From a virus: a DNA stretch of 49,329 nucleotides. The notes beneath the pieces are model-generated. The model ran no database searches and was not told where the DNA came from. It was given only the letters and a program-made list of their open reading frames with translations. Where the stretch lies: positions 1-49,329 of IMG/VR virus record IMGVR_UViG_3300045999_002286, one strand, 5' to 3'. How positions within the stretch are numbered: the first letter of the stretch is position 1; each line of letters begins with the position of its first letter. A program made the translations under genes and the position numbers. Below are positions 207-47,992 of the stretch, piece by piece.

Positions 207-1985
207 TCAGTGTGTCAGGGCCCAGTTGGGACCCACCTTGTAGTCCCCCTCTAGGGGAACCCGCATACCCAGCTCAACACCGGAAGCGAGAAACACCTCT
301 AAGGCCAACTCACCTACGCTGTGGGCGTGGTCTGCAAGACAATCAAACTGAAGTTCATCGTGGATGTTGCCCACTTGAAGTGCATCCAGTCCGTGCTGTC
401 TTATCGCTTCAAACAGGTTGATGTTCACCACCTTCATGGCAATGGCACCACCTGATTGTAGTTTGTAGTTCAGGGCCGCGTGGGCACTGGGGCACCGTAC
501 GTAGCCCCCGTCTAGGGTCTTGATGAACCCACGGGCTTGTTCCGCCTGTGTGGTCCGCACCAGTTCCTCCAGACCGGGGGTCCGTTTGGTAAGCTGATCA
601 CGAGCCCACTTACCCCACTTAGCGGGGTTCTTCTTGATGCCCGCCGTGCGTCCCAGCTTCCCATCTGAGGCCCCATATAAATAGGCGTAGAAAACTCCCT
701 TCATAGGCTTACGCTCAATCTCCAACATCTCTGCGTTGAACGTGTGGGGGTCCCCCTCGACGTATAGCTTGGCCGCCTCGTCGTTGTTGAGGTAGTGTCC
801 GAACATGCGCATCTCTAGGGCCTTGGCGTCTATGCCACACAGCAGGCGACCTTTGCGGGCCTCCCACACACTGCGGCTTTCGAACCCATAGGCCACCCCA
901 TCCACCCCCGGTATGTTGGCCGTGTTGGGGGCCGAGTGGGTCATACGGCGGGTGCTTGCACCACAGGTGTCCACGTAACCACGTATTACTGACTTTTCTT
1001 TGTCTACATTTGCAAGCCAGTTGTCCACCATGTTGGCCCGACCCGTGCAGACGAGCCAGTCAGCGATGGCTTGGACCTCTTTGATCCCCGAGGAGGTGGC
1101 AAACTCCACTAGGGATTCTTCGTCTACCTTGGGGTTACCCTTGTCCGTAAACTCTTTAGGCTCCCATCCCAGTCCAAGAAGTTTGTCAATACGTTGCGGG
1201 ACCGATCCGATATTAAAGGAGACGTAGTCAAGGCAGACGTACTCATCCCCAACGACATTAACCTGAGGATAGTGCGCCTTATGTCGTACGAAGTGTTGTG
1301 TAGGTTCTCCGCTCTTAAGAGTTCTAAACTTGTAGCGGGCAACTTCCTTAAGCTCGGGTGGAAAGAGCTCGTGGATGGTGTGTCCATAGTCTTCTGCCAA
1401 CTGTCTAAGCTGGTCTCTAAGAGCGATAGCATTTGGGATATTGAAGTAGAATCCATTTCGCTTCTGTTCATCTAGTACCTCTCGTATCTTGTGTTCAATG
1501 GATATTGACTGCTCGGAGAACTTTAACTTGGCCATCCGCTCAGTAATCTTGGTGAATACTTTACGAGTTATGCGGGCATCTTGCAAACAGTAGCGGCCCA
1601 TCTCCTCTGTATATTTGGTGAAGTCATTGTAGTCTCCCTTGGGCAGCTTGACTCGAACCCCCCACGCCGCTAAGGAATGTCCTCCATCCATTTTTGGATC
1701 GAATAGACGACTAAGAACAATGGTGTCAATACAGTTCCGATGATCAATAGGGGTATCAAGCAGACGCCGAACAACCCAAGCATCAAAGGATATAGCATTG
1801 TGTCCAACCCAGATGGCGTCTGGGCGGGCTCGTATGAACTCTCGGGTGACCTCGGGTCCGACAGTTAGGTGTTCCTCGCCCGTAACGACGTTAATAAAAG
1901 AACAGCAGTGTATTTTAGTAGCATTAAGGTCATCCGTTTCTAAGTCAAATATCCAATAGTTTTCATCGTATGTGAGGTATTTCAT
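207..1985 (-). CDS. DNA polymerase, T7-like family A with 3'-5' exonuclease
   Basis: This is the replicative DNA polymerase, 592 aa against 704 for T7 gp5. An N-terminal proofreading exonuclease is visible: D14-x-E16, NAISFD (63-68) and Y132-xxx-D136. Polymerase motif A is GIDAKALEMR (D386), motif B is RKPMKGVFYAYLYG (425-438), with a Tyr at the nucleotide-selecting O-helix position, and motif C is HDE (542-544). The loop that binds thioredoxin in T7 gp5 is not evident, consistent with the shorter length, so any processivity partner is unknown. The start overlaps the stop of the upstream gene (ATGA), implying translational coupling. Confidence 0.95.
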   Translation of the reverse strand: MKYLTYDENYWIFDLETDDLNATKIHCCSFINVVTGEEHLTVGPEVTREFIRARPDAIWVGHNAISFDAWVVRRLLDTPIDHRNCIDTIVLSRLFDPKMDGGHSLAAWGVRVKLPKGDYNDFTKYTEEMGRYCLQDARITRKVFTKITERMAKLKFSEQSISIEHKIREVLDEQKRNGFYFNIPNAIALRDQLRQLAEDYGHTIHELFPPELKEVARYKFRTLKSGEPTQHFVRHKAHYPQVNVVGDEYVCLDYVSFNIGSVPQRIDKLLGLGWEPKEFTDKGNPKVDEESLVEFATSSGIKEVQAIADWLVCTGRANMVDNWLANVDKEKSVIRGYVDTCGASTRRMTHSAPNTANIPGVDGVAYGFESRSVWEARKGRLLCGIDAKALEMRMFGHYLNNDEAAKLYVEGDPHTFNAEMLEIERKPMKGVFYAYLYGASDGKLGRTAGIKKNPAKWGKWARDQLTKRTPGLEELVRTTQAEQARGFIKTLDGGYVRCPSAHAALNYKLQSGGAIAMKVVNINLFEAIRQHGLDALQVGNIHDELQFDCLADHAHSVGELALEVFLASGVELGMRVPLEGDYKVGPNWALTH

Positions 1986-2294: not shown

Positions 2295-2491
2295 CGGCCC
2301 CGCTCCTCCTCATCTGCAAGCCCTTGAAGAAACCTGAAAGAAACTTCAACTGGATTTGAGAAGATAGTTATGTCATCTGGGTGTATTTTATTATCTTGCA
2401 TAAACTTTAACACCTGTGTATAGGTGCGAAAATCATACCTAGTTTCGTTCTCATAAGGTTCATACACATACACTACAATATTCTTAGTCAC
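2291..2491 (-). CDS. Small hypothetical protein
   Basis: A 66-aa product. The start overlaps the end of the primase-helicase gene and the stop overlaps the next GTG start. Its last codons (DEEERGR) also form the GAGGAGGAG ribosome-binding site of the following gene. No recognised domain; a replication-cluster accessory by position only. Confidence 0.7.
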   Translation of the reverse strand: MTKNIVVYVYEPYENETRYDFRTYTQVLKFMQDNKIHPDDITIFSNPVEVSFRFLQGLADEEERGR

Positions 2492-4061
2492 CCCAACCCT
2501 CCTCTACTTGGCCGCCGACACCGCCAGCTTCGTACTTCGCAACTTCTTCACTTTCCAACTCAACCAGTCGCCCTGTCTTGGGCACATACTCAAGCCACGC
2601 TGTTGGACCGCCTCGACCACAGAAGCGGTTCTTCTTGATGGTCACCTTAGTCACGTTGCGCCGCCACTCGTCAACCGCATCGACCTCCCGCTCCAGCAGG
2701 AAGACCATGTTGGCCAGTTGCTCGATGGCAGCCGTGCCCCGAATGAGACCTTGGCGATTTAGATGGACCACACAGATAATGGCAATGTTAAGCTCCATTG
2801 CAATCGTCTTGAGCTTGGTGGTAATCTCGTCCAACTGCTTACGCTCGTCCCCCGCTTGGTCGGACACCACGATGGACAAGTGGTCCAACACGATGTACTT
2901 GCACCCAAGGGCGGACATGTGGCGTACCTTGGCCAGAATCTCGTGGATACTGTTGGACCCAAAGTGGTCATAGATAACCAGCTTGTCGGTACACACAGAC
3001 GCCTCGTATATGGTACGCAGGGCGGCGGGCTCAAGGGACTCTCGAACATCGGGCAGGTGCAGGGGTTTGTTGGCCTCCACAGACATCAACCCAAGGGCTG
3101 TGTCCCGATTGGTTTCCTCTAGGTGCAGCAACCCAATGCCGTACTCGGAGTTCTTCAGGATGTGGTGTTCGATCTCCTTCAGGATGGACGTCTTACCCAC
3201 CCCCGTCTCGGCGGTAAAGACAACAAGCTCAGACAGCCGCAGCCCGTAGGTCTTGTCGTTGAACGAGTCGAACGGGTAGCTGATGGTCTCATATTGGGGC
3301 GGGTTGTTGATGTCCTCCCACATGTCCTTGCCAAACTTCAGCCCCGTGGGGATGTGCTCGGGGGCCTTCCACCACTCGTCCTTGAACGCTTGGGTACGTC
3401 CGTGGATCAGGTAGTCGTTAGGGTCCTTGAACTCCCCAAGGGTCAGGATACGCACCTTGCCGATCTCAAACATGGCGGCCACCTTGAGGGCAGCCTCTTG
3501 GCCGGGATACGTTACCTTGCCCGTCGAGGGGTTCACCTTTGGCTCGTCTTTGTCAAAGCACACGACGATCTTGTCGAAGCTGTTGAGGTACTCGAAGTTG
3601 TCTTGGACATTCTTCTCAGCGGACCCAGCCGAGTGCACAGACACGACGGGATACATGCCCATCATCTCACGCACAGCCATTGCGTCGCACTCACCCTCAA
3701 CAATGGTCAGTTGCTTGGCCGAGCCGGGTGGGAACAGGTGTTGGCCAAACAGGACGGCTTGCTTTGGGTTGCCCTCCCACCGGAATCCCTTGGGGTCCTT
3801 GGTGCGCACCTTGGTGGCCACAGGTACGCCGTCTTTGTTGGTGTAGGGGTATACGTGGTGGTTCTCGTCGGAGGTCACCCCGAAAAACTCACATACCCCT
3901 TTGGTAATTTTACGTTCGGGTAGTGCTTTTACTTCCAATCGTTTCACTTCCTTTTCTGGAAATCTCGTTGAGCCACAACTAAAGCAGTGGGTGTGCCCGT
4001 CGTCGTACAGGGTCAGGGCATCGCTGGACCCACAATCAGGGCAGGGTTGGTGGGTGCGCAT
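2484..4061 (-). CDS. DNA primase-helicase, T7 gp4-like
   Basis: Bifunctional replication protein, 525 aa (T7 gp4 is 566). An N-terminal zinc-binding module has CPDC (7-10) and HCFSC (25-29). A TOPRIM primase core shows VEGECDAM (E122) and CFDKDE (D170, D172). A RecA-like hexameric helicase domain has Walker A ETGVGKT (285-291) and Walker B YIVLDHL (389-395). The C-terminus is acidic with a Trp (VEEGWGD), the kind of tail used in T7 for polymerase contacts. The gene sits four genes upstream of the polymerase in the same operon. Confidence 0.95.
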   Translation of the reverse strand: MRTHQPCPDCGSSDALTLYDDGHTHCFSCGSTRFPEKEVKRLEVKALPERKITKGVCEFFGVTSDENHHVYPYTNKDGVPVATKVRTKDPKGFRWEGNPKQAVLFGQHLFPPGSAKQLTIVEGECDAMAVREMMGMYPVVSVHSAGSAEKNVQDNFEYLNSFDKIVVCFDKDEPKVNPSTGKVTYPGQEAALKVAAMFEIGKVRILTLGEFKDPNDYLIHGRTQAFKDEWWKAPEHIPTGLKFGKDMWEDINNPPQYETISYPFDSFNDKTYGLRLSELVVFTAETGVGKTSILKEIEHHILKNSEYGIGLLHLEETNRDTALGLMSVEANKPLHLPDVRESLEPAALRTIYEASVCTDKLVIYDHFGSNSIHEILAKVRHMSALGCKYIVLDHLSIVVSDQAGDERKQLDEITTKLKTIAMELNIAIICVVHLNRQGLIRGTAAIEQLANMVFLLEREVDAVDEWRRNVTKVTIKKNRFCGRGGPTAWLEYVPKTGRLVELESEEVAKYEAGGVGGQVEEGWGD

Positions 4062-4403: not shown

Positions 4404-4593
4404 CTTCCTGTTCCTCCTCCACAACTAGGTCACTCGGATCATCCTCTATATAAGAGTATACACTATCCTCGTTCCAGTAGTCAAGTATTTTATCAACCTC
4501 CTCGAGACACACTCCACAAGGCAGGGTCTTCATGTCCCGATGGTCCAGTTGCATTTCGTCAATAGACGCACCACAGATGTAGCAGTTACCCAC
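4396..4593 (-). CDS. Small zinc-ribbon-like protein
   Basis: A 65-aa product with CYIC (4-7) and CGVC (26-29) plus nearby His and Asp residues, typical of a small zinc knuckle. The C-terminal half is highly acidic (ends VVEEEQEDG). It overlaps the ATP-grasp gene stop upstream and the acidic-protein start downstream. The role is unknown; zinc binding is predicted from the cysteine pairs only. Confidence 0.7.
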   Translation of the reverse strand: MGNCYICGASIDEMQLDHRDMKTLPCGVCLEEVDKILDYWNEDSVYSYIEDDPSDLVVEEEQEDG

Positions 4594-5344
4594 CGTTTAG
4601 TGCCTCCGCATAGGCCTCAATGGTGGACCCTGACAGACCCGGTGCTGTGTTTACCTCAAGGATGTACGCACGATCCGAGGGCTTGTGGTAGATTACGTCG
4701 ATGGCTCCGAAGTCCAGCATCGTGTTGTCGGCATAGTCTTGGCAAGCCTCGATAACTTGCTCCGGCATATCCTCAAAGGTGCTAAGGGCATAGACGAACC
4801 CACCAGCTAGGTTGCGTACCTTCCAGTTGACATCCTCGTTCGGCACATCCAGTTTACGCCCCTTACGGGCAAACTTGATAAGACTATCACCATAAAAGTG
4901 CACCCGATACTCATCGGTCTTCTTCTTGTACTTTGTGTACAGGGGTGCGTGGGGCATCAACATACCGGGTTCTACGATCTCGATACCTTCGCCTGAGTGG
5001 CCTCGAAGATTGTGGCGAGCAACCACAGTGAAGTCTTGGGCGGCCCAAAGAAGAGCATTATCAATATTAGTGGTGTGCTGTACTACGTAATCACGATTAC
5101 CCGGATAGGTCTGAAAGAAAGACTTCTTGTTGGATACAATGTCAACGTGCTCAGGGTTGTTGACGATTACCCCCTTCATCACCTCAGGGTTGTCGATCTC
5201 TGAACACCCCCAGTTGATAATCACATCGCCGGGCTTGTATTTATATCGGGAACCCTCACGCTTGATTCGTTTGGCCCCGATGGCCTCCGCCAGCTTTTTG
5301 GCAGACTCAGATGCTGAATTGTAAGGTAAGACAAAAGTACGCAT
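4586..5344 (-). CDS. ATP-grasp ligase (RimK/YheC-like)
   Basis: Predicted ATP-dependent carboxylate-amine ligase, 252 aa. The C-terminal ATP-grasp signature is clear: DFGAIDV (211-217) and ILEVNTAPGL (228-237), with the Glu and Asn that bind Mg-ATP. An upstream RHNLRGHSGEGI (110-121) resembles the glycine-rich nucleotide loop. Families of this type join an amino group to an acyl-phosphate. It is the last gene of a cluster with two amidoligases and two glutamine-amidotransferase-like proteins, so it probably works on the same substrate. GAAGGAGAG precedes the ATG. Confidence 0.85.
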   Translation of the reverse strand: MRTFVLPYNSASESAKKLAEAIGAKRIKREGSRYKYKPGDVIINWGCSEIDNPEVMKGVIVNNPEHVDIVSNKKSFFQTYPGNRDYVVQHTTNIDNALLWAAQDFTVVARHNLRGHSGEGIEIVEPGMLMPHAPLYTKYKKKTDEYRVHFYGDSLIKFARKGRKLDVPNEDVNWKVRNLAGGFVYALSTFEDMPEQVIEACQDYADNTMLDFGAIDVIYHKPSDRAYILEVNTAPGLSGSTIEAYAEALNGG

Positions 5345-5347
5345 AGA

Positions 5348-6265
5348 TTATAACTCTCCTTCATCGGCTTCATGTTCGGCTACATAGAACACGTATTCCA
5401 TTCGGTCGTCGTTGAACTTCTTTACTGGTTTGAACGCTGTGAGGTCAACCCCATAACACAGGTCTTGGGCAAGGCGCAAGGACTGCCACACAACAGGGAT
5501 GTTGAAGTCGATCCCTTGTGATGGTTTGCCAAAACACTCCTCGAACATCTCGGCCAACCCACGCATGGACAGCATAGGCAGGACATCCTTGGGGTCAGCC
5601 TCACAAGCGAGAACCCAATTACGTAGGGCTTCTACGTATGAGATGAACTCCACGATGTAGGCCGCATCAATGGACCCCCGCAAGTAGCGGAACTCCAACG
5701 AGCAGAACTTACCGATACTGGCCCAGTTAAGGCCCATGTAGCGGCGGTTGCCATCGATGTACTTGATTGTCTCCGGTTTGAACGACTCGATTACGTGGTC
5801 CACAAATACTGGGGCGTCCACGGCGCGAAGACAAAAGAGGTTACCAACCCGCTCTGGGGCAAACTTTTCCACGATGATGGGCTCGAACACGTACCACAAG
5901 GTGGAAAACAGCAACAGTTGACGTGGGGTAAACGTTTGTACATTCATGTGGACGTGAACGGAGCACCGATTGGACCACTTGATAGCATCAAGAAGGGTCG
6001 TGTCATCCAGTCCGGTCTCCTTGGCGGCCAGCATCTGGGTGGGTTGATCTAGTACCTCAGGTAGTGTCTTGTAGGACACGGGCCCACGCATGATGAGCTC
6101 GAAGCCGTTACGCAACGAGCCATCCTTGACCTGTTGCCAACTTGCAGAACCTATCTTGTAGTTGTCAGCCTCAGCAAGTTCACTGTCGAACTCAATCTCT
6201 AGCTCACAGGCATAGGTGCCGGGATATTCCTTACGCTTAACAATGTCATTAAGTTGCGGTTCCAT
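5348..6265 (-). CDS. Amidoligase (glutamine-synthetase-fold)
   Basis: Predicted ATP-dependent amide-bond ligase of the amidoligase family, 305 aa. Diagnostic pieces are ELEIEF (21-26, metal-binding acidic residues), DGSLRNGFEL (48-57), CSVHVHM (101-107) and LEFRYLRGS (190-198). Family members are proposed to form amide or isopeptide bonds in peptides, cell-wall material or proteins. It overlaps the preceding gene by 17 nt and is 3 nt from the ATP-grasp gene, so the proteins are made together. The substrate is not known. Confidence 0.85.
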   Translation of the reverse strand: MEPQLNDIVKRKEYPGTYACELEIEFDSELAEADNYKIGSASWQQVKDGSLRNGFELIMRGPVSYKTLPEVLDQPTQMLAAKETGLDDTTLLDAIKWSNRCSVHVHMNVQTFTPRQLLLFSTLWYVFEPIIVEKFAPERVGNLFCLRAVDAPVFVDHVIESFKPETIKYIDGNRRYMGLNWASIGKFCSLEFRYLRGSIDAAYIVEFISYVEALRNWVLACEADPKDVLPMLSMRGLAEMFEECFGKPSQGIDFNIPVVWQSLRLAQDLCYGVDLTAFKPVKKFNDDRMEYVFYVAEHEADEGEL

Positions 6266-6836
6266 TTACGGCCTCATCTAGTGCTTCTTGTAGGTACTTG
6301 TATTGGTCGTCCAAGACGGGTACATTATCTACAAACTTACCTACGACCTTTGTCTTATAGTTTAGGTCGTCCCGAATCTTGGCGAAGTAACGGGAGAACG
6401 CCCCAGATTTGCCCGCCTCAATGTATGTATTCAAAGCGGGATAGTCATTGAATACTGACTTGGCCAGACACTCGAAGAAGTATTCGTCAAAGGGCATTCT
6501 ACGTTGTGTAGTAAGAACAGGGTTGACGACTATATTGTCCGAGTTAATACCTTGCTTGTACTGGCGATGACCTGTACGAGAGGTAAAGAAAGGGCCCTTG
6601 GCCGTGTTAATGAACCCGAGCGGAAACCCTTGGAAGATAACCTCAGGATCATTGACGTCAACCTCTCGCATTTCACCTTTGAAGTTTTGAAGTGTGATCA
6701 AGAAATCATCAAAGCCAGCACCGTCACGTACTGACATGACACTGTAAAACTTGTTGCGATACAGTACGAAGCTATTAAACAGTCGGTCTCGGACAGATTC
6801 TTTACTGTCAAAGATCATGCGACTACTTGTGAACAT
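6249..6836 (-). CDS. Hypothetical protein of the amidoligase cluster
   Basis: A 195-aa product of unknown function. I start it at the ATG at 6836 because GGAGG lies 9 nt upstream. An upstream in-frame start at 6875 would run deeper into the preceding amidoligase gene. No membrane segment or metal-binding motif is visible. Its position between the two amidoligase genes, overlapping both, suggests a partner or substrate of the ligase system. Confidence 0.75.
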   Translation of the reverse strand: MFTSSRMIFDSKESVRDRLFNSFVLYRNKFYSVMSVRDGAGFDDFLITLQNFKGEMREVDVNDPEVIFQGFPLGFINTAKGPFFTSRTGHRQYKQGINSDNIVVNPVLTTQRRMPFDEYFFECLAKSVFNDYPALNTYIEAGKSGAFSRYFAKIRDDLNYKTKVVGKFVDNVPVLDDQYKYLQEALDEAVNGTAT

Positions 6837-7626
6837 AACGTGGAACCTCCAAGGCTGGTGGTGTTTGGTACTCATTGTTGTTGATGCACCGCTCAGCTAG
6901 GCCGGGAGATGCGTCGTCGTAGAAGATGTCACGCTCGAACAGGTCCGCCAACGCCTGCTGCGTGCTGTTAAAGACAAAGTCACACAGGTCCCGGTCAAGG
7001 ACCCACTTGTTGCTGAGGACGCGATACTCGACCCCGTAGGACTTCGGACGGAAAGCCCCCGCCTTCCCATAGAGCTCCCGACGGCGGTTGTCAGTGTCCC
7101 AAAGCAGGGAGTTGAGACCTAGGGCGTAGTCAAGCTGGATGCAAACCTCTCGGCACTTGTTGTAGTGCTGTGGACTGAACGCATCGGCCCCCTCGGTCCA
7201 CCCAATGTGGATGTGACCCGACCCAGTACGGAACATGACTCGGGCATCAGGGATGGGGTTGACCTCCCCAGTGTAGGCGTTGTAATCGGGATTGCACCCC
7301 AACTCGACCGCCTTCTCAGGCAACGACTTGAAGTAGGCCTCGTCGTAGGTGGCCACAGGTGTGGCGGTAAGCGTGTATCCCGGAAGCATACGACCCATAG
7401 AGTGGACAACGGCTCGGATATAGTCCCCGAACTCTTGCGCCGTGGACGCTGGGTCGATGTTGAACTCGGCTGCTGTGCCATCGACTTGGACAGCCCCGTA
7501 CGGGACCTTGAACGGTTCCTCTTTAGTGCCCGGCAACTTGTCGTGTACAGACACAAACGAACCGGAGTTAGGATTTACACAGAACAATTCGGGATCAGCC
7601 CCGATAAGGATATTCGCTTTCATCAC
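6823..7626 (-). CDS. COOH-NH2 ligase-type amidoligase
   Basis: A second, distinct glutamine-synthetase-fold ligase, 267 aa. Key blocks are GADPELF (9-15), VDGTAAEFN (48-56), RTGSGHIHIGW (133-143) and a basic/acidic block RRRELYG to VEYRVLSN (181-206). These match the phage and bacterial COOH-NH2 ligase group. It probably activates a carboxylate with ATP and couples it to an amine, with nitrogen perhaps supplied by the neighbouring amidotransferase. The start may be Met1 or Met2. Confidence 0.85.
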   Translation of the reverse strand: MMKANILIGADPELFCVNPNSGSFVSVHDKLPGTKEEPFKVPYGAVQVDGTAAEFNIDPASTAQEFGDYIRAVVHSMGRMLPGYTLTATPVATYDEAYFKSLPEKAVELGCNPDYNAYTGEVNPIPDARVMFRTGSGHIHIGWTEGADAFSPQHYNKCREVCIQLDYALGLNSLLWDTDNRRRELYGKAGAFRPKSYGVEYRVLSNKWVLDRDLCDFVFNSTQQALADLFERDIFYDDASPGLAERCINNNEYQTPPALEVPRYVHK

Positions 7627-7641
7627 TTTTGTCTTCCCTTC

Positions 7642-8736
7642 TTAGCTTGCTTTTGAGCGCAAGGCCCAGTTGTCAGTACCTAGATTTTCAATTAACCACT
7701 CTTTCCAATTGTCTGGACTGTCATTCCAGCAATCACCACACACAAACATTGGGGCCGTAACCCCGTTATCGAAGAATATCTTAGCATCCTTCCCACTAGA
7801 GGAGAACTTGACAACTTCTATACCACACGACTGGCAGCAGGAACCGTGTGTGTCATAGGAATCATCGAGGTCGTCCCACTTAACCACCGACCCGTCATAG
7901 TAGGTAAACTTGGAGTCACCCCCACCGACGTCGTACCGCCAAGACTTACCACGGTACCTCGTCCAGTCTGTGTAGTCGTCGTTTGCGTTTGCCTTCCCGC
8001 CACCGAAAAAACTTTTCTTTGGCGCGTCCTCCACGTACGGCAACCAGAACCTCTGGTCAAGTTTTGGGATTTGAAGGGCCATGTGTTTGTCAATGGGTAG
8101 TTGCATTATGGAACCGGGGTCGATCTTGATACCGTTGCGAGCCAGAATCCACACCAGCATACCCAATTCGGATGCCCACCACAGATTCTTACCACCACCT
8201 GATGTGCACAAGTACAGGTCGCGCTCCTCGTTGCGAAGGAAGTTAATTGTTTCGTAGACCTCATCGTACCAGATAAGACACCAAGCCCCTGAGGCGATTT
8301 GTCCCATAGTTTCTCGTGCCCCGATCTCGGAGATAGACTTGAGCAGCGCCTTGGAGTCCATATCCTCCTTACCGCCGTACTCTAGTTTCTTCCAAGTGTA
8401 CTCAGGTACGGTGCCGTTGTGGGCTCCGATGATGTCCCCGTATGAGAACGGGTGAGCATTTTCTAGGTTAACCGCCCCTTGTGTAGCCCAACGATTGTGG
8501 CCAATCATGACTGATACATCGAGGGCTGTGGTAAACGCCTTGTCGAACTGCTTGAACTCTGTCAGTTCGTGGCCGTGGCCGAGGGAGTGAAACACTGAAC
8601 CAACCTCATCCCGTCGGGACTTGAAGTAGGCACCCGCTGAGTGGGGCCCACGTAGGGAGCCTACTTGTAGCAGTTGTTTGAACGCTTGCTTCTCGGGCCC
8701 ACTGAGGGACCCCGCCGCGCCTAGATGTCCGCACAT
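7642..8736 (-). CDS. Class II glutamine amidotransferase with zinc-binding tail
   Basis: Predicted N-terminal-nucleophile glutaminase, 364 aa. Cys2 is the nucleophile (MCGHLGA), with RGPHSAGA (29-36), GHNRWATQG (79-87), AHNGT (105-109) and an Asp near 127, as in the GlmS/PurF glutaminase domain. The long C-terminal part is not a known synthase domain. It ends with two Cys pairs (CCQSCG and CGDC) that could bind zinc. It would release ammonia from glutamine for a ligase of the cluster, by inference. It lies 15 nt upstream of the second amidoligase. Confidence 0.85.
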   Translation of the reverse strand: MCGHLGAAGSLSGPEKQAFKQLLQVGSLRGPHSAGAYFKSRRDEVGSVFHSLGHGHELTEFKQFDKAFTTALDVSVMIGHNRWATQGAVNLENAHPFSYGDIIGAHNGTVPEYTWKKLEYGGKEDMDSKALLKSISEIGARETMGQIASGAWCLIWYDEVYETINFLRNEERDLYLCTSGGGKNLWWASELGMLVWILARNGIKIDPGSIMQLPIDKHMALQIPKLDQRFWLPYVEDAPKKSFFGGGKANANDDYTDWTRYRGKSWRYDVGGGDSKFTYYDGSVVKWDDLDDSYDTHGSCCQSCGIEVVKFSSSGKDAKIFFDNGVTAPMFVCGDCWNDSPDNWKEWLIENLGTDNWALRSKAS

Positions 8737-8942
8737 TACACTCTACTCCCCCACTTGCAATAAGAATCAATAGCAAAAGCAAATGGTCCGATCATATACC
8801 ACCAGCTATCATCTTCCGGAAAACGCCAGCAGGCTCGGTCCCACTGAGTAACATCCAACTTCCAGTAAAGAGCCCAACCACTTGAGTGTTTGACAAGGGG
8901 TTGAAGCTTATACCTTTTTTCGTACGGTGATTGCTTCCACAT
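8736..8942 (-). CDS. Small Trp-rich hypothetical protein
   Basis: A 68-aa product with nine Trp residues. The stop shares a base with the ATG of the class II amidotransferase. Start and stop are tightly packed between ligase-cluster genes. No family recognised. Confidence 0.65.
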   Translation of the reverse strand: MWKQSPYEKRYKLQPLVKHSSGWALYWKLDVTQWDRACWRFPEDDSWWYMIGPFAFAIDSYCKWGSRV

Positions 8943-8943
8943 A

Positions 8944-9753
8944 TTATCGCTTCCGTTCTTTGATAAGGGTTACTAAGTCTTTAGGGGAGGACCCACCGAA
9001 GCGTCCCTCCGCTACTAACCCGAGAAGGGACTTGGGCGTATCTCCTGTACCCCACATCCTGTGGATACCCGTCTCCCACCCATCACGGGCAAACACCTTG
9101 TCACCCATGATCTGGGGGACACCCTCTAGGAAATTACCGAAGCCAATGCTTTCGGCTAGTGGTCCGTGGTGGGAGGTAAGGAACGAATAGCTATAGGTTT
9201 CCCCGACTAGCGACTCGGTCATCCACATGAAGTACAGTGCTTCGTCTTTGTCTACACCAGCATTGACTAACCGTACCCAGTTGTCCACCTTATCGGAGTT
9301 CTCCCACAGTGCCCGAATGAACGTATTGACACAAAAGAAGTGCTTGGATACGAAGTTCAGGTCGTTGTGAACGAAGACAAAGCCGGAGTGTTTATCCCCC
9401 TTTACTAGGGCCCAAGAGTCGGGCCGAGACATACCCCGCAACACCTTGCACTCGTCAGACATGATGTGCTCAAGATACGCTAGGTGTTCCCGCTTGTACT
9501 TCTGGTTGAACGGGGAGAACCAAAACATCCAGTCCCCCTCTTCGAACTTACTACGTGGCTTCTCACCCTTTTGGGTGGCCTCAAAGCGGGGGGAGAAACC
9601 TTGCATGAACGCCATACAGATACGGCCAATCTCGGCGTGGGTCTTGTGTGTCTCCAGATTATTGGGGACAAACACTACGGATGAAACCCCCGAAGGTCGG
9701 GGTAGTTGGGAGGTGGCCCCCCAGAACGTGGCAAAACCTAGTTTAGACAGCAC
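8944..9753 (-). CDS. Hypothetical protein of the amidoligase cluster
   Basis: A 269-aa soluble protein that I do not recognise. It has several aromatic-rich blocks (GDWMFWFSPFNQKY; EALYFMWMTES) and no signal peptide or membrane helix. The gene is 3 nt from the class I amidotransferase-like gene and 1 nt from the next small gene. Its fixed place between the two amidotransferase-type genes suggests that it belongs to the same pathway. Confidence 0.75.
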   Translation of the reverse strand: MLSKLGFATFWGATSQLPRPSGVSSVVFVPNNLETHKTHAEIGRICMAFMQGFSPRFEATQKGEKPRSKFEEGDWMFWFSPFNQKYKREHLAYLEHIMSDECKVLRGMSRPDSWALVKGDKHSGFVFVHNDLNFVSKHFFCVNTFIRALWENSDKVDNWVRLVNAGVDKDEALYFMWMTESLVGETYSYSFLTSHHGPLAESIGFGNFLEGVPQIMGDKVFARDGWETGIHRMWGTGDTPKSLLGLVAEGRFGGSSPKDLVTLIKERKR

Positions 9754-9756
9754 GGG

Positions 9757-10404
9757 CTAGCCCTTGATAACAAGTTGTGGAAAGAACTCAGTTACGAGTT
9801 CGACGAAATACTCTGTGCACTCAGGGTGGCCCGAGTACTCAGGGTGGGGTTGAAAGCACAGCGAGTTGGTGGTCTCATAGTACAACACCTCGATGTCTGT
9901 TGATCGGAACCGCTCCAACTCGTTGGCCGCTTGTCGGTAGGTTGATAGCGGGGCGGCGGCAACACCTATGATGGCCGCATCTGGGCTGGGCCGCATCATT
10001 TGGTGGTGGGTGGACGTGCAGAAGTATTCCCGCAGTGTCCGTGTGTCCTTGACTAGGTGGCTTCGGGTGTGTCCGTCTACGTCTTGCCACATACGGCCCC
10101 CACTCATGACGTTCAGGAACTGGGCCCCCCGACAGATGCCGATACGGGGCACATCAGGGAACTCCTTGAACAGGTAAATACAGTTGTCATCCCGCCGTCT
10201 GCTTGTCCCTGATGCTACGTTGTCTTCCCCGTACAGGTGGGGGCTTACGTCGGCACCACCTGTGAACACGATTACGTTGGCCTCGGTGGGGTCCTCAACG
10301 ACTTGCCACCCAAACTCACGTTCGAGCATACGCCCAACAAGCATGTCGTCGTCTTCTACAAATACCTTACAGGTCGCATCGACCGTTGGCGAAGCTATTA
10401 CCAT
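9757..10404 (-). CDS. Class I glutamine amidotransferase-like / gamma-glutamyl hydrolase
   Basis: A 215-aa alpha/beta hydrolase of the GATase1 superfamily (peptidase C26-like, similar to PuuD). The oxyanion region is FTGGADVSP (47-55), the nucleophile elbow is GICRGAQ (C91), and the His/Glu pair is in HPEY (H187, E189). Members cleave gamma-glutamyl amides or supply ammonia. As a stand-alone enzyme beside ligases it could trim or recycle a gamma-glutamyl-type product. The start overlaps the preceding stop. Confidence 0.85.
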   Translation of the reverse strand: MVIASPTVDATCKVFVEDDDMLVGRMLEREFGWQVVEDPTEANVIVFTGGADVSPHLYGEDNVASGTSRRRDDNCIYLFKEFPDVPRIGICRGAQFLNVMSGGRMWQDVDGHTRSHLVKDTRTLREYFCTSTHHQMMRPSPDAAIIGVAAAPLSTYRQAANELERFRSTDIEVLYYETTNSLCFQPHPEYSGHPECTEYFVELVTEFFPQLVIKG

Positions 10405-10601
10405 TTTTTGAAGTACTCCTCTTCCGCAGCCTTGGCGGCCTGTTTGTCGGGGTTACCTACCCACTTACGATAATTGGTCCGCCATTCTACCGCAGCTTCG
10501 CGGCGCACCTCGGGGTCCAGTCCTTGCAAAAGTTTCGCAAGTCTGGGGTATGTGCTGTCAGCAACGTACATCGCTGTTTGTAAAGATATATTCAAAGCCA
10601 T
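10398..10601 (-). CDS. Small hypothetical protein after the EDIWL array
   Basis: A 67-aa, helix-rich, charged product ending EEEYFKKW. It begins at an ATG inside the EDIWL codons of the upstream gene, with GGAGG as ribosome site. It is the first gene downstream of the array and lacks the EDIWL tail. Function unknown. Confidence 0.7.
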   Translation of the reverse strand: MALNISLQTAMYVADSTYPRLAKLLQGLDPEVRREAAVEWRTNYRKWVGNPDKQAAKAAEEEYFKKW

Positions 10602-10840
10602 ATATCCTCCGATTTGGTTGTAGCACCAACTCCTAAGCCTTGGTGGATAAGTGATGTCCTATCAGCCTCTGTGTACTTTTCCGCACCTCGGTACCTAGCC
10701 CACCAGTAAGGATCGCCTTCTTCAGATGTAATCCAGTCAAACGCTCTTAGTAAGTAGCCCCTACAATGTCTAGGTATAAAGTCACCTGTGGGTGTAAGTG
10801 AAATTAGGTTGTCAAAATCCTCCATATTACGAATTTTCAT
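10592..10840 (-). CDS. EDIWL-tailed small protein (array member 8)
   Basis: An 82-aa product. The middle block (AFDWITSEEGDPYWWARY) matches the repeat-family core A-xx-W-xxxx-E-G-xx-Y-W, and the C-terminus is SEDIWL. The ATG overlaps the upstream TGA (ATGA) and is preceded by GAGGAGGA from the upstream tail codons. Function unknown; it belongs to the expanded family described in the findings. Confidence 0.8.
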   Translation of the reverse strand: MKIRNMEDFDNLISLTPTGDFIPRHCRGYLLRAFDWITSEEGDPYWWARYRGAEKYTEADRTSLIHQGLGVGATTKSEDIWL

Positions 10841-11139
10841 AGCCAGATGTCCTCCTCAGGTTGTAGCAGGGTCTTGTAGTCACCTAAGTAAGCTTCAATC
10901 TTCTTATGATCTTCCTCACTCCAAGGTCGGATAGCACGGCCTTGTCCCATACCGTAGAAGGGCTTTGGGTTAAGATCGTACCAATACTCGTGGCCCTCAT
11001 TTGAACGTACAAAGTGCATACCAAAGTTAAGAAGCTCATATACATCTTCTGAAAGAAACTCACCCTCAACAAGACCAACTTCCAAAAGTGCTTGAAGGTT
11101 CGTAGCTTTAGTTACGCAGGGGTGTAAACCTAAAGCCAT
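10837..11139 (-). CDS. EDIWL-tailed small protein (array member 7)
   Basis: A 100-aa product, the longest in the array. It shares a HPCV...T.L..L start with member 6 and has the core MHFVRSNEGHEYWYDL. It ends QPEEDIWL. The ATG lies inside the upstream tail codons (ATATGGCTT), giving a 10-nt overlap, with GAGGA just upstream. Confidence 0.8.
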   Translation of the reverse strand: MALGLHPCVTKATNLQALLEVGLVEGEFLSEDVYELLNFGMHFVRSNEGHEYWYDLNPKPFYGMGQGRAIRPWSEEDHKKIEAYLGDYKTLLQPEEDIWL

Positions 11140-11387
11140 ATATCCTCCTCAGGTGGTGGTGAAATGAGGTTTGAATAAAATCGGATTCGTTCCGCAGCAT
11201 AGTTTGTCCAGTTCCTCTCCTCTCTGTAAAACTCCTTCCAGAAATTGTGACCCTCCTCTGAGGAGGACCATCGCATCCCACGATCTAAGGCTTGTTGACA
11301 TCTATGGGTCAGTACACCCCCCACTTGTGCATTAAGGACTAAATACTCAAGCTCAGTAGGTCTTTTGACGCAAGGGTGATACGTCAC
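11130..11387 (-). CDS. EDIWL-tailed small protein (array member 6)
   Basis: An 85-aa product. The GTG start overlaps the upstream TGA. The N-terminus has HPCVKRPTELEYL and the family core is ALDRGMRWSSSEEGHNFW. It ends PPEEDIWL. The ribosome site GAAGAGGAC comes from the upstream tail. Confidence 0.8.
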   Translation of the reverse strand: MTYHPCVKRPTELEYLVLNAQVGGVLTHRCQQALDRGMRWSSSEEGHNFWKEFYREERNWTNYAAERIRFYSNLISPPPEEDIWL

Positions 11388-11632
11388 AGCCAGATGTCCT
11401 CTTCAGGGGGTTGTTGTTCACCAAACTCACCGAGATATTTAAAGATAAAACCGTACACGTGAAGATCATCACCTTCCCACTCAAAGCTACGTGTAGTACC
11501 AATCCACACTAGACCTTTCTCAACAGATGTCATGGTGAGATATGTGGTCGGATTATTTTCAAACAATGAGAAGTCAGCCCTGTATAGGGTACGTCCTATA
11601 CTTCTTACAAGGCAGGATCGTATTATAGCCAT
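11384..11632 (-). CDS. EDIWL-tailed small protein (array member 5, divergent body)
   Basis: An 82-aa product whose body differs from the main family; only a loose GLVWIGTTRSFEW block recalls the core. It still ends PPEEDIWL. The ATG is inside the upstream tail codons (10-nt overlap). A conserved tail on a different body argues that the tail itself has a job. Confidence 0.75.
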   Translation of the reverse strand: MAIIRSCLVRSIGRTLYRADFSLFENNPTTYLTMTSVEKGLVWIGTTRSFEWEGDDLHVYGFIFKYLGEFGEQQPPEEDIWL

Positions 11633-11868
11633 ATGTCCTCCTCTTCGTTAAGCCCAAGTAACTCTCGCAAGAACTTAGTGTCCTTCTTGGCCCACTTCAT
11701 TTGGCCATAAGCTTTTTTACACCAGTAGTCGTAACCTTGAGGGGTAGTGGCCCACTCAAAACCCAGCTGTAGGTCCCAACCAAGACCCCACCTATAGATT
11801 CTAGAACCGGGTTCTGGGTCAAAGTTAACGATCCGTTGCAGCCTTGCTGCGTCAAGTATTTTTGTCAC
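11623..11868 (-). CDS. EDIWL-tailed small protein (array member 4)
   Basis: An 81-aa product starting at GTG, which overlaps the upstream TGA; a TTG two codons earlier is possible. The core is LGFEWATTPQGYDYWCKK and the end is NEEEDIWL. The tail uses ATA for Ile where other members use ATC or ATT, so the residues are kept while codons drift. Confidence 0.8.
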   Translation of the reverse strand: MTKILDAARLQRIVNFDPEPGSRIYRWGLGWDLQLGFEWATTPQGYDYWCKKAYGQMKWAKKDTKFLRELLGLNEEEDIWL

Positions 11869-12062
11869 AACCAAATGTCCTCCTCTGGCGGTTCAAGTGG
11901 GGGTGTCACTGCCCGATTAGATGTTGAAGTCCAGTCTATATGATTACCTACGATAATCATCCCAGGGTTAGCTTCGATCATCATCCCAGCGTGTGCATCA
12001 TGTACTACGAAATGATTGCCGAAAATATCTAAGTCTACAACTAACCGTCGTATCTCATCCAT
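11865..12062 (-). CDS. EDIWL-tailed small protein (array member 3, divergent body)
   Basis: A 65-aa product with an unrelated, beta-rich body (IIVGNHIDWTSTSNRA) and the same PPEEDIWL tail. Unlike its neighbours it follows a 34-nt gap after the upstream gene, with GAGAAG as a weak ribosome site. Its tail codons provide GAGGAGG for the next gene. Confidence 0.75.
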   Translation of the reverse strand: MDEIRRLVVDLDIFGNHFVVHDAHAGMMIEANPGMIIVGNHIDWTSTSNRAVTPPLEPPEEDIWL

Positions 12063-12096
12063 CTGGTCTTCTCGAAAAAGGGGTTTTCCCGGTATA

Positions 12097-12588
12097 TCAA
12101 CAAAACTCCGGTCTGGGGCGACCTGTCCACTTGTGCAAGTCGCGTTTGCCTAACTTATAGTAGTTGCGGTAACTAAGCACTACAGAATCCCACGTGTGAC
12201 CCTTGCCAACCATGTACTCAAGGTCCATTGCAGGCTTCGGCACAGTTAGCCCAAGGTCTGAGATGGCCCGTGGTGGCTCACAAAGCACGTCTACAAGCCC
12301 GTCATAGGATTTGTGATGTCTACCACCGAACCGATAAGAAAACTCGCCAGCGAGGCCGTGGAAGTGGTTTACGAGCCATTGGTAGTTGATGACTGATTTC
12401 GCGGTCCACACAGCAGACGGGTGGTGTTGGTGTGTTGGCTTGTACATGAACTTGGCCGTGGGGCTATTGTGTACGTGGTGTGCCGTGCTGAGTAACTGGG
12501 CCGTCTCAAGAATCATCTTGGACACGTGGCTGTCAACCATGTACTCGGCACACTTAACGGGGTCGTAGTCAAGAAAGAAAATGTTCAC
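12097..12588 (-). CDS. Conserved phage protein, possible pyrimidine-dimer glycosylase-like fold
   Basis: A 163-aa product starting at GTG (overlapping the upstream EDIWL stop). MNIFFLDYDPVKCAEYMVDS followed by HVSKMILETAQLLS, then a His-rich stretch (KPTHQHHPSAVW), is a pattern I recall from phage proteins annotated in the pyrimidine dimer DNA glycosylase group. The catalytic residues cannot be confirmed by eye, so a DNA repair role is tentative. It interrupts the EDIWL array but uses the same junction type. Confidence 0.55.
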   Translation of the reverse strand: MNIFFLDYDPVKCAEYMVDSHVSKMILETAQLLSTAHHVHNSPTAKFMYKPTHQHHPSAVWTAKSVINYQWLVNHFHGLAGEFSYRFGGRHHKSYDGLVDVLCEPPRAISDLGLTVPKPAMDLEYMVGKGHTWDSVVLSYRNYYKLGKRDLHKWTGRPRPEFC

Positions 12589-12845
12589 AGCCAGATGTCC
12601 TCTTCGGGTTCAGCAGCCCCATCATTGAGTCCGACGATCACGTCCCTTACCTCCTGTGTAAGAAGAGACCCGTAGTACAGGTCCAGCATGATACTTCTGC
12701 GCAGACCATAGGCCATCTCAACCTTAGCCCAGTCTAGGGCCCTGTTAAGTAGAGTTCTTTGGTGATGTCCTAGCTCTAGCCCCACCTCAAGGCCTGAGTC
12801 AACCAGCTTGCTTAGAGCATTAGGGTTTAGTATAAAGTCGTTCAC
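12585..12845 (-). CDS. EDIWL-tailed small protein (array member 2)
   Basis: An 86-aa product starting at GTG (12845), which overlaps the upstream TGA; a longer frame to 12899 would run into the upstream gene. It is clearly paralogous to member 1 (LVDSG...HHQ..LL.RA..W..VE..Y shared). It ends EPEEDIWL. Confidence 0.8.
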   Translation of the reverse strand: MNDFILNPNALSKLVDSGLEVGLELGHHQRTLLNRALDWAKVEMAYGLRRSIMLDLYYGSLLTQEVRDVIVGLNDGAAEPEEDIWL

Positions 12846-13105
12846 AGCCAGATGTCCTCCCCTCCCTCCGTTACAGGGGCCGAGCCGTTGAGCTCCCAAA
12901 GGATTTCAAGCACCTCCATAGTCATCGGCGTGGTCCGGTCGTGTATATCCGCCAGAAGCCCCGGCCATAAACGGGGATAGTTCTCCTCCACAACGGACCA
13001 GATAATAGCTCGATCTAGGAGGTACGCCTGATGGTCGGTGAGGTACGCCCCCTCTACGGGTCCCGAGTCAACGAGCTCAGTCAACCTATCTGCGTCGTAG
13101 ATCAT
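12842..13105 (-). CDS. EDIWL-tailed small protein (array member 1)
   Basis: An 87-aa product and first member of the array in transcription order. It has a strong AAGGAGG ribosome site before the ATG. The core is LLDRAIIWSVVEENY and the tail is GGEDIWL. The body resembles member 2 closely enough to indicate tandem duplication. Confidence 0.8.
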   Translation of the reverse strand: MIYDADRLTELVDSGPVEGAYLTDHQAYLLDRAIIWSVVEENYPRLWPGLLADIHDRTTPMTMEVLEILWELNGSAPVTEGGEDIWL

Positions 13106-40700: not shown

Positions 40701-43305
40701 TATTGGAACCCCTCAGGGGACTATTAGACCTATTGCTACCCCAGCCTCAGACACCAATGTGTTTGCGGGACTGAGTCGTGTGGCAGGTATGTTCTCGGAC
40801 GTAATGGGGGAACAGACTCGGGCCACCGCTAGGGCTCAGGCGGCTGAGGAACGGGCTCGGGACAACATGCGCCAAGATCGGGCTGAAGAGCGGGCAATAG
40901 CTAGTGAACAGAGAAGCATCTGGGAATTCAACCAACGTGTTGGGGAGTCAGAGGCTAAGGACGTTGCTGCACGTCTTATGTGGGATCATAACACCCGCAC
41001 CCTTGAGAACATGCAACGTCCAGCAGAGACAATCTATGGGGACCCTGTTGAGCAAATTACGATCAATGGGGGCACCCTTGGGCCCGAGGGTGAAGCTGCT
41101 ACAGCCAAGATCGAGAAGGTCCGTAAGGCTTTGGTACAAGGTCGTGTGTCCCAGTCGGTGGTGGACTTACAAACCCGTAACATCATTGATAGGTACGTAA
41201 GCGCCAACCCCGATAAGGCCGCCGAGTTTGCCGCTGCCCTGAAAGATCGTGGGGTGGACGACCCATTTGTGCGATCCATTGAGGTGGCCCGAGACGCAGA
41301 AAGCTTCGTAAAGGAGCAGGAGCGGGCGGCTATTAAGGCGGCCACAGATGCTGCTGCTGCTGTAGGGGCCACTGTATTTGGGGCTGACGGTACACTTGAT
41401 GTGGCTGCAACAGTCCGTGTAGGTACAACTATCCTACGTGAAAATAATACTTTTCAAGTGGCTAAGCAAAAGCTGGAGCTGGCAGAAAAGCAAGTAGGCA
41501 TAGACGAGAAGACACGCGCTGCGGCACGCCAAGAGTTTGGGGACGTCGCTATGTCCTCAGCCTATAAGATCGCAGACGAGCTCAGCAACTCCACCGTCAC
41601 TTCTCTTGTCTCTTTGTCTAACGCTATCCGCTCCCCAGAGCAGTTCCAGAAGTTTGTGACGGAATCTGTACCCCTTGCTCGTCAGAGTTTGCAAACAGCT
41701 AAGTCCCGTATCATCCAACAGATGGGTCCTAATGTTCCATCTGATGTTTATCAGAAGACAATTGACCTCATTGACAAGCAACTACAAGCTGTGGATGACT
41801 TGGTTACTGGGGATGCCTCGGTGGTCAAGACACGTATGGAGGCCCTCAAGATGTTTGAGACCTCACTCGGTTTGTCTAAGGCCCAGTCGTTTCCGATGTG
41901 GAACTACTACTCGCAAATCTTCGGCCAAGCCAATCTGGTGGATGCCGTGTCGGGGGGTAACATCTCGTCTATTATCCCTAAGGAGGAGATGGAGGCTCTG
42001 CGCCAACAGCTTGCCACTGGGGTTCAAACAAGACAGGGTCAACAGGCGTCCTTGGCAGCAAGTAATTTTGCCCTCCTGATTGGGGGCACAGCTAAGTTGG
42101 AAGACCTAGACCCAGAGCAACAGCGTACTGCTTTGCCCAAGCTTATGGCGTCCACGGCCCAACACGCCCAGACCATCGTGAACACAGGTGGTGGCCCGGT
42201 TAACTACAACGCCTTTGTGAACTCCTTAGCGGGCACCTCAAATGCTGTGGCCACCTCGGTCCAACCCTCAACAGTAACACTACCCAGCTTCATCAATGCT
42301 ACCAAGGCCCTCACGGCGGGTGGTGACAACGGGCGTCCTATGGTGGCCTCTGCTGTTCTTCGTCTGGCCCAAGTGCCGGGTTACGAAGATGAGGCACGGG
42401 CGTTGGCCAACAGTGTGAATATTTCCAGTATGCAGTTGATCAACGGCTCTGGGAAACTTATCCAAGAGGCCTCTAAAGGGGGTATCTATAATGTCAGGTT
42501 CAATGATCGTACAGCACGCTATGAGGTTGTGACTGATCAAGCTAAGTTGCAAGCGGCTATCAAGAACTCTCGTGGCCTTAATACTATTGTCTTCGGCTCT
42601 GCTGGTCAGAGTACGTCGGCCCCTAGTGGTAAGGAAGCAACGGCCTTGGCTAACACGATGAACAACTTGGTGGGTAACATGGCCTCTATGCGGGAACTGG
42701 ACCCAACCTTCCGAGGAACCAATGTGTCCTTCGAGGAAGCTAAGGCATACTTTGCAACTGGTAAGACTCCATCGTCCCTGAAGACAGCAATCAAGGAAGA
42801 GAAGTCGGCGGCCCAGAAGTTCGAGGAAGCCTCGGCGTCGTTTAACAGGGCGGCCCAAGCGGCGTCTGAAATCAACATCCAACAACGGGATGAGGCTGTT
42901 AAGGCCAATGGCCGTCGAGCCCCTGCTGAAGTACGCTCTATTATTGAAAGTGCAGCGACTAAGAATGGGGTAGACCCAGACCTTATGGAGGCCCTTGCTT
43001 ACCAAGAGTCTAGGTTTAATACCAAGGCTGTATCTCCTAAAGGGGCCCGTGGTCTTGCTCAATTGATGCCGGGGACTGCGGAAGGTCTTGGAGTAGATAT
43101 AAATGATCCGCAACAAAACGTTGAAGGTGGGGCTCGATACTTAGCAACTCAACTTAAACGCTTTGGCAGTCTTGAGCTGGCCCTTGCTGCTTACAATGCC
43201 GGACCAGAAAATGTAGCTAAATATAAAGGTATCCCGCCGTTCCCTGAAACGCAGGAATATGTTAAGAAGGTGATGGCACAGTATAATGCAATCCGAGGTA
43301 ATTAA
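40684..43305 (+). CDS. Internal virion protein with C-terminal lytic transglycosylase
   Basis: An 873-aa, helical, Ala-rich protein (gp15-like size). The last 120 residues are an SLT lysozyme-like domain: EALAYQESRFN with the catalytic Glu, GARGLAQLMPGTA, and ALAAYNAGPENV. It would cut peptidoglycan locally during DNA entry. Having the domain at the C-terminus of this protein, instead of the N-terminus of the giant protein, is a rearrangement relative to T7. Confidence 0.9.
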   Translation: MALTADIGTPQGTIRPIATPASDTNVFAGLSRVAGMFSDVMGEQTRATARAQAAEERARDNMRQDRAEERAIASEQRSIWEFNQRVGESEAKDVAARLMWDHNTRTLENMQRPAETIYGDPVEQITINGGTLGPEGEAATAKIEKVRKALVQGRVSQSVVDLQTRNIIDRYVSANPDKAAEFAAALKDRGVDDPFVRSIEVARDAESFVKEQERAAIKAATDAAAAVGATVFGADGTLDVAATVRVGTTILRENNTFQVAKQKLELAEKQVGIDEKTRAAARQEFGDVAMSSAYKIADELSNSTVTSLVSLSNAIRSPEQFQKFVTESVPLARQSLQTAKSRIIQQMGPNVPSDVYQKTIDLIDKQLQAVDDLVTGDASVVKTRMEALKMFETSLGLSKAQSFPMWNYYSQIFGQANLVDAVSGGNISSIIPKEEMEALRQQLATGVQTRQGQQASLAASNFALLIGGTAKLEDLDPEQQRTALPKLMASTAQHAQTIVNTGGGPVNYNAFVNSLAGTSNAVATSVQPSTVTLPSFINATKALTAGGDNGRPMVASAVLRLAQVPGYEDEARALANSVNISSMQLINGSGKLIQEASKGGIYNVRFNDRTARYEVVTDQAKLQAAIKNSRGLNTIVFGSAGQSTSAPSGKEATALANTMNNLVGNMASMRELDPTFRGTNVSFEEAKAYFATGKTPSSLKTAIKEEKSAAQKFEEASASFNRAAQAASEINIQQRDEAVKANGRRAPAEVRSIIESAATKNGVDPDLMEALAYQESRFNTKAVSPKGARGLAQLMPGTAEGLGVDINDPQQNVEGGARYLATQLKRFGSLELALAAYNAGPENVAKYKGIPPFPETQEYVKKVMAQYNAIRGN

Positions 43306-47540: not shown

Positions 47541-47783
47541 TTAGTTCACCGTTGGGTCCAGCACATCCAGTGCCTCGCGGGCTACCTCAACCACCTTGTC
47601 AATGGGGCTAATGTACGTCAGGTTGGAGTCTTCGTCCGTGATGCCCACGAAGGTGCCCGTCACGATCAGGTACCCATAGTGCATGGCCCCCTCGGGGTTG
47701 CTCAAGGTCCTTACGCGATAGAACCCCATTGGGGGGCCCTTAGGTTCTTCAGGTTTAGCGGGGAATCCAATAATTTTACTCAA
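47541..47783 (-). CDS. Small hypothetical protein
   Basis: An 80-aa product starting at TTG, which overlaps the upstream EEDNWL stop. GAAGAGGAC from the tail codons serves as ribosome site. The N-terminus is Pro-rich, followed by a beta-rich segment (YGYLIVTGTFVGITD). Unknown function. Confidence 0.65.
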   Translation of the reverse strand: MSKIIGFPAKPEEPKGPPMGFYRVRTLSNPEGAMHYGYLIVTGTFVGITDEDSNLTYISPIDKVVEVAREALDVLDPTVN

Positions 47784-47992
47784 AGCCAGTTGTCCTCTTC
47801 TACGTCGTCAATACCTACAAACTCATCTAGGCCGCTGTATACGACCCTATAAAATCCGTCTGGGTTCTCTACTTGCAATTGTCGTACAGCTTCATCTGCT
47901 GATTCTTCATCGACGTAAACCCCCTCGGGCCACGCCTCCTGTACGTCCATTACAATCCAAGCCTCGCCCTTATCCTTAAATCCGTTGAGCAA
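47780..47992 (-). CDS. EEDNWL-tailed small protein
   Basis: A 70-aa acidic product. Its end, VEEDNWL, nearly matches the EDIWL tail of the array at 10.6-13.1 kb, 34 kb away in this numbering (about 15 kb across the join). The body is unrelated. The junction to the next gene has the same overlap design. Confidence 0.7.
   Translation of the reverse strand: MLNGFKDKGEAWIVMDVQEAWPEGVYVDEESADEAVRQLQVENPDGFYRVVYSGLDEFVGIDDVEEDNWL

Follow-up and report, generated by a model that had tools for sequence, protein, structure and literature searches.

Enzyme module and tagged small ORFs in the window

The stretch of DNA analyzed here, referred to as the window, covers a virus record of 49,329 bases (IMGVR_UViG_3300045999_002286, positions 1–49,329). 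Its minus strand carries two adjoining features, namely a module of amidoligase- and amidotransferase-like genes and, directly upstream, an array of small open reading frames (ORFs) whose proteins end in the same peptide, EDIWL, called the tag below. The module starts with a C26-like class I glutaminase/gamma-glutamyl hydrolase (9757–10404; Pfam Peptidase_C26, PF07722, E 4e-15), followed by a conserved component of 269 residues, unk269 (8944–9753), a 68-residue ORF (8736–8942), and a class II (Ntn) glutamine amidotransferase domain joined to a C-terminal four-Cys, putatively zinc-binding, motif (7642–8736; GATase_6, E 1.6e-13). Then come a phiEco32-type COOH-NH2 ligase (6823–7626; PF14395, E 6.3e-6; phrog_3815, E 2.9e-82), the conserved, non-enzymatic-looking phrog_11055 (6249–6836, with alternative starts at 6875 or 6818), a second amidoligase (Amidoligase_2, 5348–6265; PF12224, E 5.3e-9), and a RimK-like ATP-grasp ligase (4586–5344; phrog_2599, E 2.1e-72). 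The Pfam and PHROG matches bear out all five enzyme types that an earlier, sequence-only reading had placed here.

The tag array spans 10592–13105 and consists of eight small ORFs on the minus strand, at 12842–13105, 12585–12899, 11865–12062, 11623–11874, 11384–11632, 11130–11387, 10837–11139 and 10592–10840. It is interrupted by one untagged gene (12097–12588), whose protein, phrog_624, has weak similarity to pyrimidine dimer glycosylase. A ninth small ORF of 70 residues (47780–47992), distant in record coordinates and on the same strand, ends in the variant VEEDNWL. After the module come a primase-helicase (2484–4061, minus strand; phrog_239, E 8e-150) and a family A DNA polymerase (207–1985, minus strand; phrog_17, E 2.2e-108).

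Recurrence of the module in other phages

The module is common: a tblastn search with its COOH-NH2 ligase matched 317 phage records, while 8 kb of the window, searched as DNA against phages, gave zero matches. The window's gene order recurs in PA11, CW02, CVT22 and T5S1-k141_18163 (Zobellviridae), and Bruynoghevirus Ab22 has the set present but rearranged. From a profile scan of IMG/VR we took the best 80 loci of 363 and added the named phages and the window; with duplicates and near-identical records left out (L001, L002, L003, L006, L008, L048, L088), 83 loci were compared. Because the loci were picked by the COOH-NH2 ligase gene, the counts describe the company of that gene: the class II GATase was present in 83, the COOH-NH2 ligase in 82, phrog_11055 and the ATP-grasp in 81 each, and the amidoligase in 80. 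Less constant were the C26 enzyme (74), unk269 (66, by iterated profile) and a gamma-glutamyl cyclotransferase (GGCT; 25, with L007 counted on the basis of its annotated gene and protein), which we looked for in the window and did not find. The primase-helicase shares the locus in 79 of 83 cases and the polymerase in 75.

The sequence-only reading had staked itself on these genes co-occurring outside this genome and on relatives keeping the essential residues. The core five are found in 80–83 of the 83 loci, a clustering that, judged from these sequences, is far beyond chance and keeps the same order in the named phages, and the catalytic residues are kept. Cys91, His187 and Glu189 of the C26 triad are present in 74/74 relatives, E13, H138, H140, E200 and R202 of the COOH-NH2 ligase in 82/82, and E21, E23, E25, H104, H106, E191 and R193 of Amidoligase_2 in 80/80. 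The ATP-grasp retains K73 and R110 in 81/81 and E230 and N232 in 80/81. In the class II GATase an xCG motif lies near the N-terminus in 75 of 83 (the window protein begins MCG), and the C-terminal C300, C304, C333 and C336 occur in 79–81 of 83.

The three proteins between the enzymes, previously proposed as unknown partners, fared differently. Both unk269 and phrog_11055 are conserved, but the 68-residue ORF has no PHROG match and no relative in the 83 loci. In the closest relative of the window (L011), the GATase II gene begins 2 bases past the stop of the 269-residue gene and the 68-residue ORF is absent; on this comparison it is outside the module core. The AlphaFold2 model of phrog_11055 is confident (pLDDT 90.9), and its N-terminal half (residues about 9–70) matches SH3/Tudor/KOW barrels with Z 5–6 over about 50 residues. 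As this barrel is a common arrangement, the model suggests an adaptor-like protein at most. In unk269, Cys46, Arg147, Glu151 and His196 are near-invariant (64–65 of 66 homologues), for which reason we regard it as a possible unrecognised thiol enzyme. Its model is poor (pLDDT 61.7), with no fold match above Z 2.7, and family members are sometimes 480–660 residues long. The family was visible by iterated profile only, since single-sequence tblastn returned zero matches at E 0.01 and nothing convincing at E 10.

The enzyme cluster of the window is an ordinary member of a module that has been published, and so it is not the new combination it had first been taken for. PMC5498523 describes a seven-gene putative peptidoglycan modification cassette in RIO-1, phiEco32, 7-11, PA11, tf, MR299-2, LUZ24, PaP3 and CW02, and the same hypothesis is repeated in PMC11945000; Iyer et al. 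and Hardies et al. 2013 are cited there as its sources. In the RIO1-like phage HP1 the cassette genes are expressed immediately, according to PMC7082346. The published cassette has the COOH-NH2 ligase, a second amidoligase, the ATP-grasp and a glutamine amidotransferase together in an early region, and so does the window. The RIO1-like cassette includes a GGCT, unlike the window; this gene is not required, because it is absent in PA11, a listed member. The descriptions, as far as these texts are available, make no mention of tagged small ORFs, unk269 or phrog_11055, and no assay of module function was found in the available portions of the literature.

Tag arrays and selection on the tail peptide

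What is new here is that tag arrays adjoin the module, each lineage having its own peptide, which hints at a recognition system. The sequence-only reading of the operon makes no reference to these neighbouring ORFs. Including the window, we found arrays in 11 module-bearing genomes, with the lineage-specific endings LENE, LENK, LEND, LEEN-, LED[WY][ML] and EDIWL. There are 19 tails in CVT22 (LENE), nine in CW02 (LEEN-), nine each in L050 and L060 (LED[WY][ML] in most of both), eight in L077 (LED or LDE, then WL), 13 in Klyazma (LENK), 17 in Pecta (16 LEND and one LENE), 10 in VR7901 and seven in L306 (LENE). In Asterion, 14 of 15 matched tails are LENK or MENK, and L011 has one tagged ORF at the contig edge. 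Within Citrovirus the last residue of the tag changes as a block by genome, being E in CVT22, K in three Klebsiella phages and D in Pecta. The sole LENK tail of CVT22 (40843–41064) has a Klyazma LENK protein as its best relative, and that gene looks like a recent cassette transfer between phages.

In a blind count allowing one wildcard, at least four C-terminal 5-mers shared a pattern in six of the 83 module loci, and internal control positions reached three at most. Among 115 haphazard viral loci (1.10 Mb), which are shorter on average and so allow a rough comparison, none reached four; the one that reached three owes this to long proteins whose ends resemble each other. The proteins bearing the tags are mostly dissimilar: in the six tagged genomes compared first, the 62 tails sit on bodies forming 51 BLAST groups, and searches for body homologues found few. 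Some bodies may be distant relatives, as several have a 'VGD' SH3-like look. We found no account of such arrays in the papers searched, which is limited evidence; as far as this search shows they are undescribed, and as a peptide-level feature they are well supported, if unexplained.

Shared tails might also arise at the DNA level, as ribosome-binding and start cassettes copied between overlapping genes. Indeed, the Shine-Dalgarno (SD) sequence of the next gene lies inside the tail in 49 of the 62 cases, elsewhere in 12, and was not found for one (some of these next-start assignments are uncertain), and the first acidic codon is GAG in 44 of the 49 SD-carrying tails. This explanation, already disfavoured, appears very unlikely to us. 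Pooled over the tails, the proportion of synonymous differences (pS) is 0.745 and that of nonsynonymous differences (pN) 0.085; selecting the tagged ORFs through their peptide pattern depresses pN and leaves pS unaffected, and with pS this high the shared tails do not stem from recent DNA copying. The motif is kept in 11 of the 12 tails where the SD is elsewhere, and seven of those 12 use GAA at the first acidic codon. W/Y and L/M exchanges occur at fixed tail positions, and the D of the Pecta tag is encoded by both GAT and GAC. Moreover, an SD-like sequence precedes six of the eight module genes in the window, yet none of the module proteins ends in the tag. Because synonymous codons vary while the peptide persists, these comparisons indicate that the tail peptide is under protein-level selection, though the tail usually also holds the ribosome-binding site of the next gene.

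A further possibility is a role in cis, the nascent tail at termination tuning how the next gene is translated. The tails do sit at stop codons overlapping or abutting the next start, and in L306 a tagged gene precedes nearly every module gene. We nevertheless think such a role improbable, since tails are kept where the next start is distant (135 bases at CVT22 42893 and 47 bases at 33367), and since the last residue differs as a block among Citrovirus phages whose hosts are related enterobacteria.

A predicted glutamyl-type pathway and its relation to the tags

The reading we prefer, at a probability of roughly 0.5, is that the module forms an early pathway making and removing amide bonds of the gamma-glutamyl or a similar carboxylate-amine type, with a peptide-like molecule as acceptor, and that the adjacent tags serve as a recognition tag. 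The COOH-NH2 ligase and Amidoligase_2 would each couple an ATP-activated carboxylate to an amine, and the RimK-like ATP-grasp would extend the carboxylate of a peptide or protein by a further residue. Cleavage or transfer of the glutamyl group would fall to the class II GATase and the C26-like enzyme, joined by GGCT in other phages, with phrog_11055 and unk269 as candidate adaptor or processing partners. The C-terminal tag would be recognised by a factor that is phage-encoded or co-evolves with the phage. The successive couplings and C26-type trimming proposed earlier fit the predicted families and their fixed co-occurrence. The suggestion that the class II enzyme supplies ammonia did not gain support. 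Gamma-glutamyl hydrolases are found in this family too, among them EgtC, to which there is a weak, sub-cutoff match.

All 63 loci judged complete have C26 or GGCT, and GGCT is present in 4/4 of those without C26 versus 15/59 of those with it (p 0.0065). Since all four C26-less loci carry GGCT, it is as if the two enzymes were interchangeable in glutamyl removal. The GGCT of CW02 matches the solved structure 3jub, an AIG2-like protein that we take to be human gamma-glutamylamine cyclotransferase. The best NCBIfam models for C26 are gamma-glutamyl hydrolases, including gamma-glutamyl-CDP-amidate hydrolase and gamma-Glu-GABA hydrolase, all far below cut-off.

Several points weigh against the glutamyl-type pathway with its recognition tag. 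Four loci underlie the C26/GGCT test, the family matches of C26, GGCT and ATP-grasp are too weak to settle specificity, and the substrate and activity of the module are predicted. To these we add the pattern-based choice of tagged ORFs and the uncertain next starts mentioned above. Furthermore, 77 of the 83 module loci have no detectable tag array, and a search for gene families confined to tagged genomes gave none beyond what ancestry explains.

The published view, that peptidoglycan side chains acquire three unusual linkages through the cassette, which would block superinfection or prepare lysis, is stated for RIO1-like phages and relatives in the two papers cited above and seems to us possible, though somewhat doubtful. 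The best solved matches of the ATP-grasp family profile are alpha-L-glutamate ligase and the graspetide ligase CdnC (E 2.6e-6), and both the profile similarity and the ATP/Mg-binding residues place it with RimK/alpha-L-glutamate ligases; D-Ala-D-Ala ligases, which would suit the cell wall, are among the weaker matches (E 5e-4). The profile is thus nearer to protein and peptide glutamate ligases, and in the window the module sits among replication genes. Solved-structure searches with the amidoligase and the COOH-NH2 ligase returned nothing useful.

The frequent presence of primase-helicase and polymerase in the same locus could instead point to a modified nucleotide or free metabolite as the product, and the top sub-cutoff NCBIfam match of C26, the CDP-amidate hydrolase, is a nucleotide-linked enzyme. 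That match is far below cut-off, however, and among the window ORFs listed and scanned, which are part of the total, there is no modified-base synthesis gene. A nucleotide or metabolite product appears unlikely, and the DNA modification raised by the sequence-only reading gained no support.

How tightly the tags belong to the module can be judged from scans that start with the tag. The L050 and L060 arrays were recovered by tag sequence alone (2/2 matches). An EEDIWL scan returned 36 contigs, in one of which the tag closes an ORF (the L011 fragment), and scans with QLEND (37 contigs) and SLENE (35) gave arrays in 2 of 72, CVT22's own record and L306, both among the 35. Most of the tag-first matches were chance single ones, but all four arrays and the one fragment found by tag alone carry the module. 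VpV262 (Zobellviridae) has no array and no module gene seen in its annotation, and the module phages L250 and L251 have no array. On the ATP-grasp tree, which predates the further Citrovirus genomes, tagged genomes form three groups, implying three changes. Shared ancestry may explain the link and, as most module phages are without an array, the module does not need tags.

A closer coupling would exist if the module ligases read a per-lineage code and extended or conjugated the tag, with C26 or GGCT reversing the reaction. Co-evolution of code and reader would then make the last residue switch in all copies at once. By analogy this would be a phage counterpart, in logic, of Pup or S6 glutamylation; we hold it to be a rather remote prospect. 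Pup is a small disordered protein ending in GGE or GGQ that works together with the proteasome. The module phages likewise have predicted carboxylate-amine ligases of the glutamine synthetase (GS) superfamily and small proteins with a conserved C-terminus, but the tags are not GGE/GGQ, vary between phages and are carried by bodies that are mostly dissimilar, and no proteasome-like gene was found in the window. The glutamyl-type pathway has a nearer likeness in PuuA/PuuD-type gamma-glutamylation, which pairs a GS-superfamily ligase with a C26 hydrolase. The module goes beyond this pair with two ligases, an extra ATP-grasp and a class II GATase, and the PuuD model match is below cut-off. RimK and graspetide ligases (CdnC, MdnB) share the ATP-grasp fold family with the module enzyme but are distant from it (E 2.6e-6 with the family profile).

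Phages that can be cultured (CVT22, Klyazma, Asterion, VR7901, Pecta and CW02) have dozens of early proteins with this block-switching C-terminal signal, which provides a testable handle; identifying the tag reader could show the target of the module, or reveal a separate protein-targeting code of phages. We considered three candidates. A search for a tag-specific accessory gene gave only virion genes, visible through whole-genome inclusion, and GGCT in 4/6. Mimicry of the acidic C-terminal tip of single-stranded DNA-binding protein (SSB) appears doubtful, as putative SSB tails do not track the tags in CW02 (DDDLPW; tag LEENV) and CVT22 (DDNQNPW; tag LENE); the window's candidate, not firmly an SSB, ends in DDEWA, the tag there being EDIWL. 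Proteasome homologues occur in Klyazma, Pecta, VpV262, L022 and L129, and none was detected in the window, CVT22 or CW02.

HslV/proteasome-beta-like peptidases are encoded at 25373–25852 in L248, 25702–26175 in L249, 20743–21303 in L252, 13718–14140 in L022 and 6048–6467 in L129, tagged Citrovirus members included. Lastly, the early strand of the window also carries a ribonucleotide reductase gene (phrog_367) at 44074–45948.

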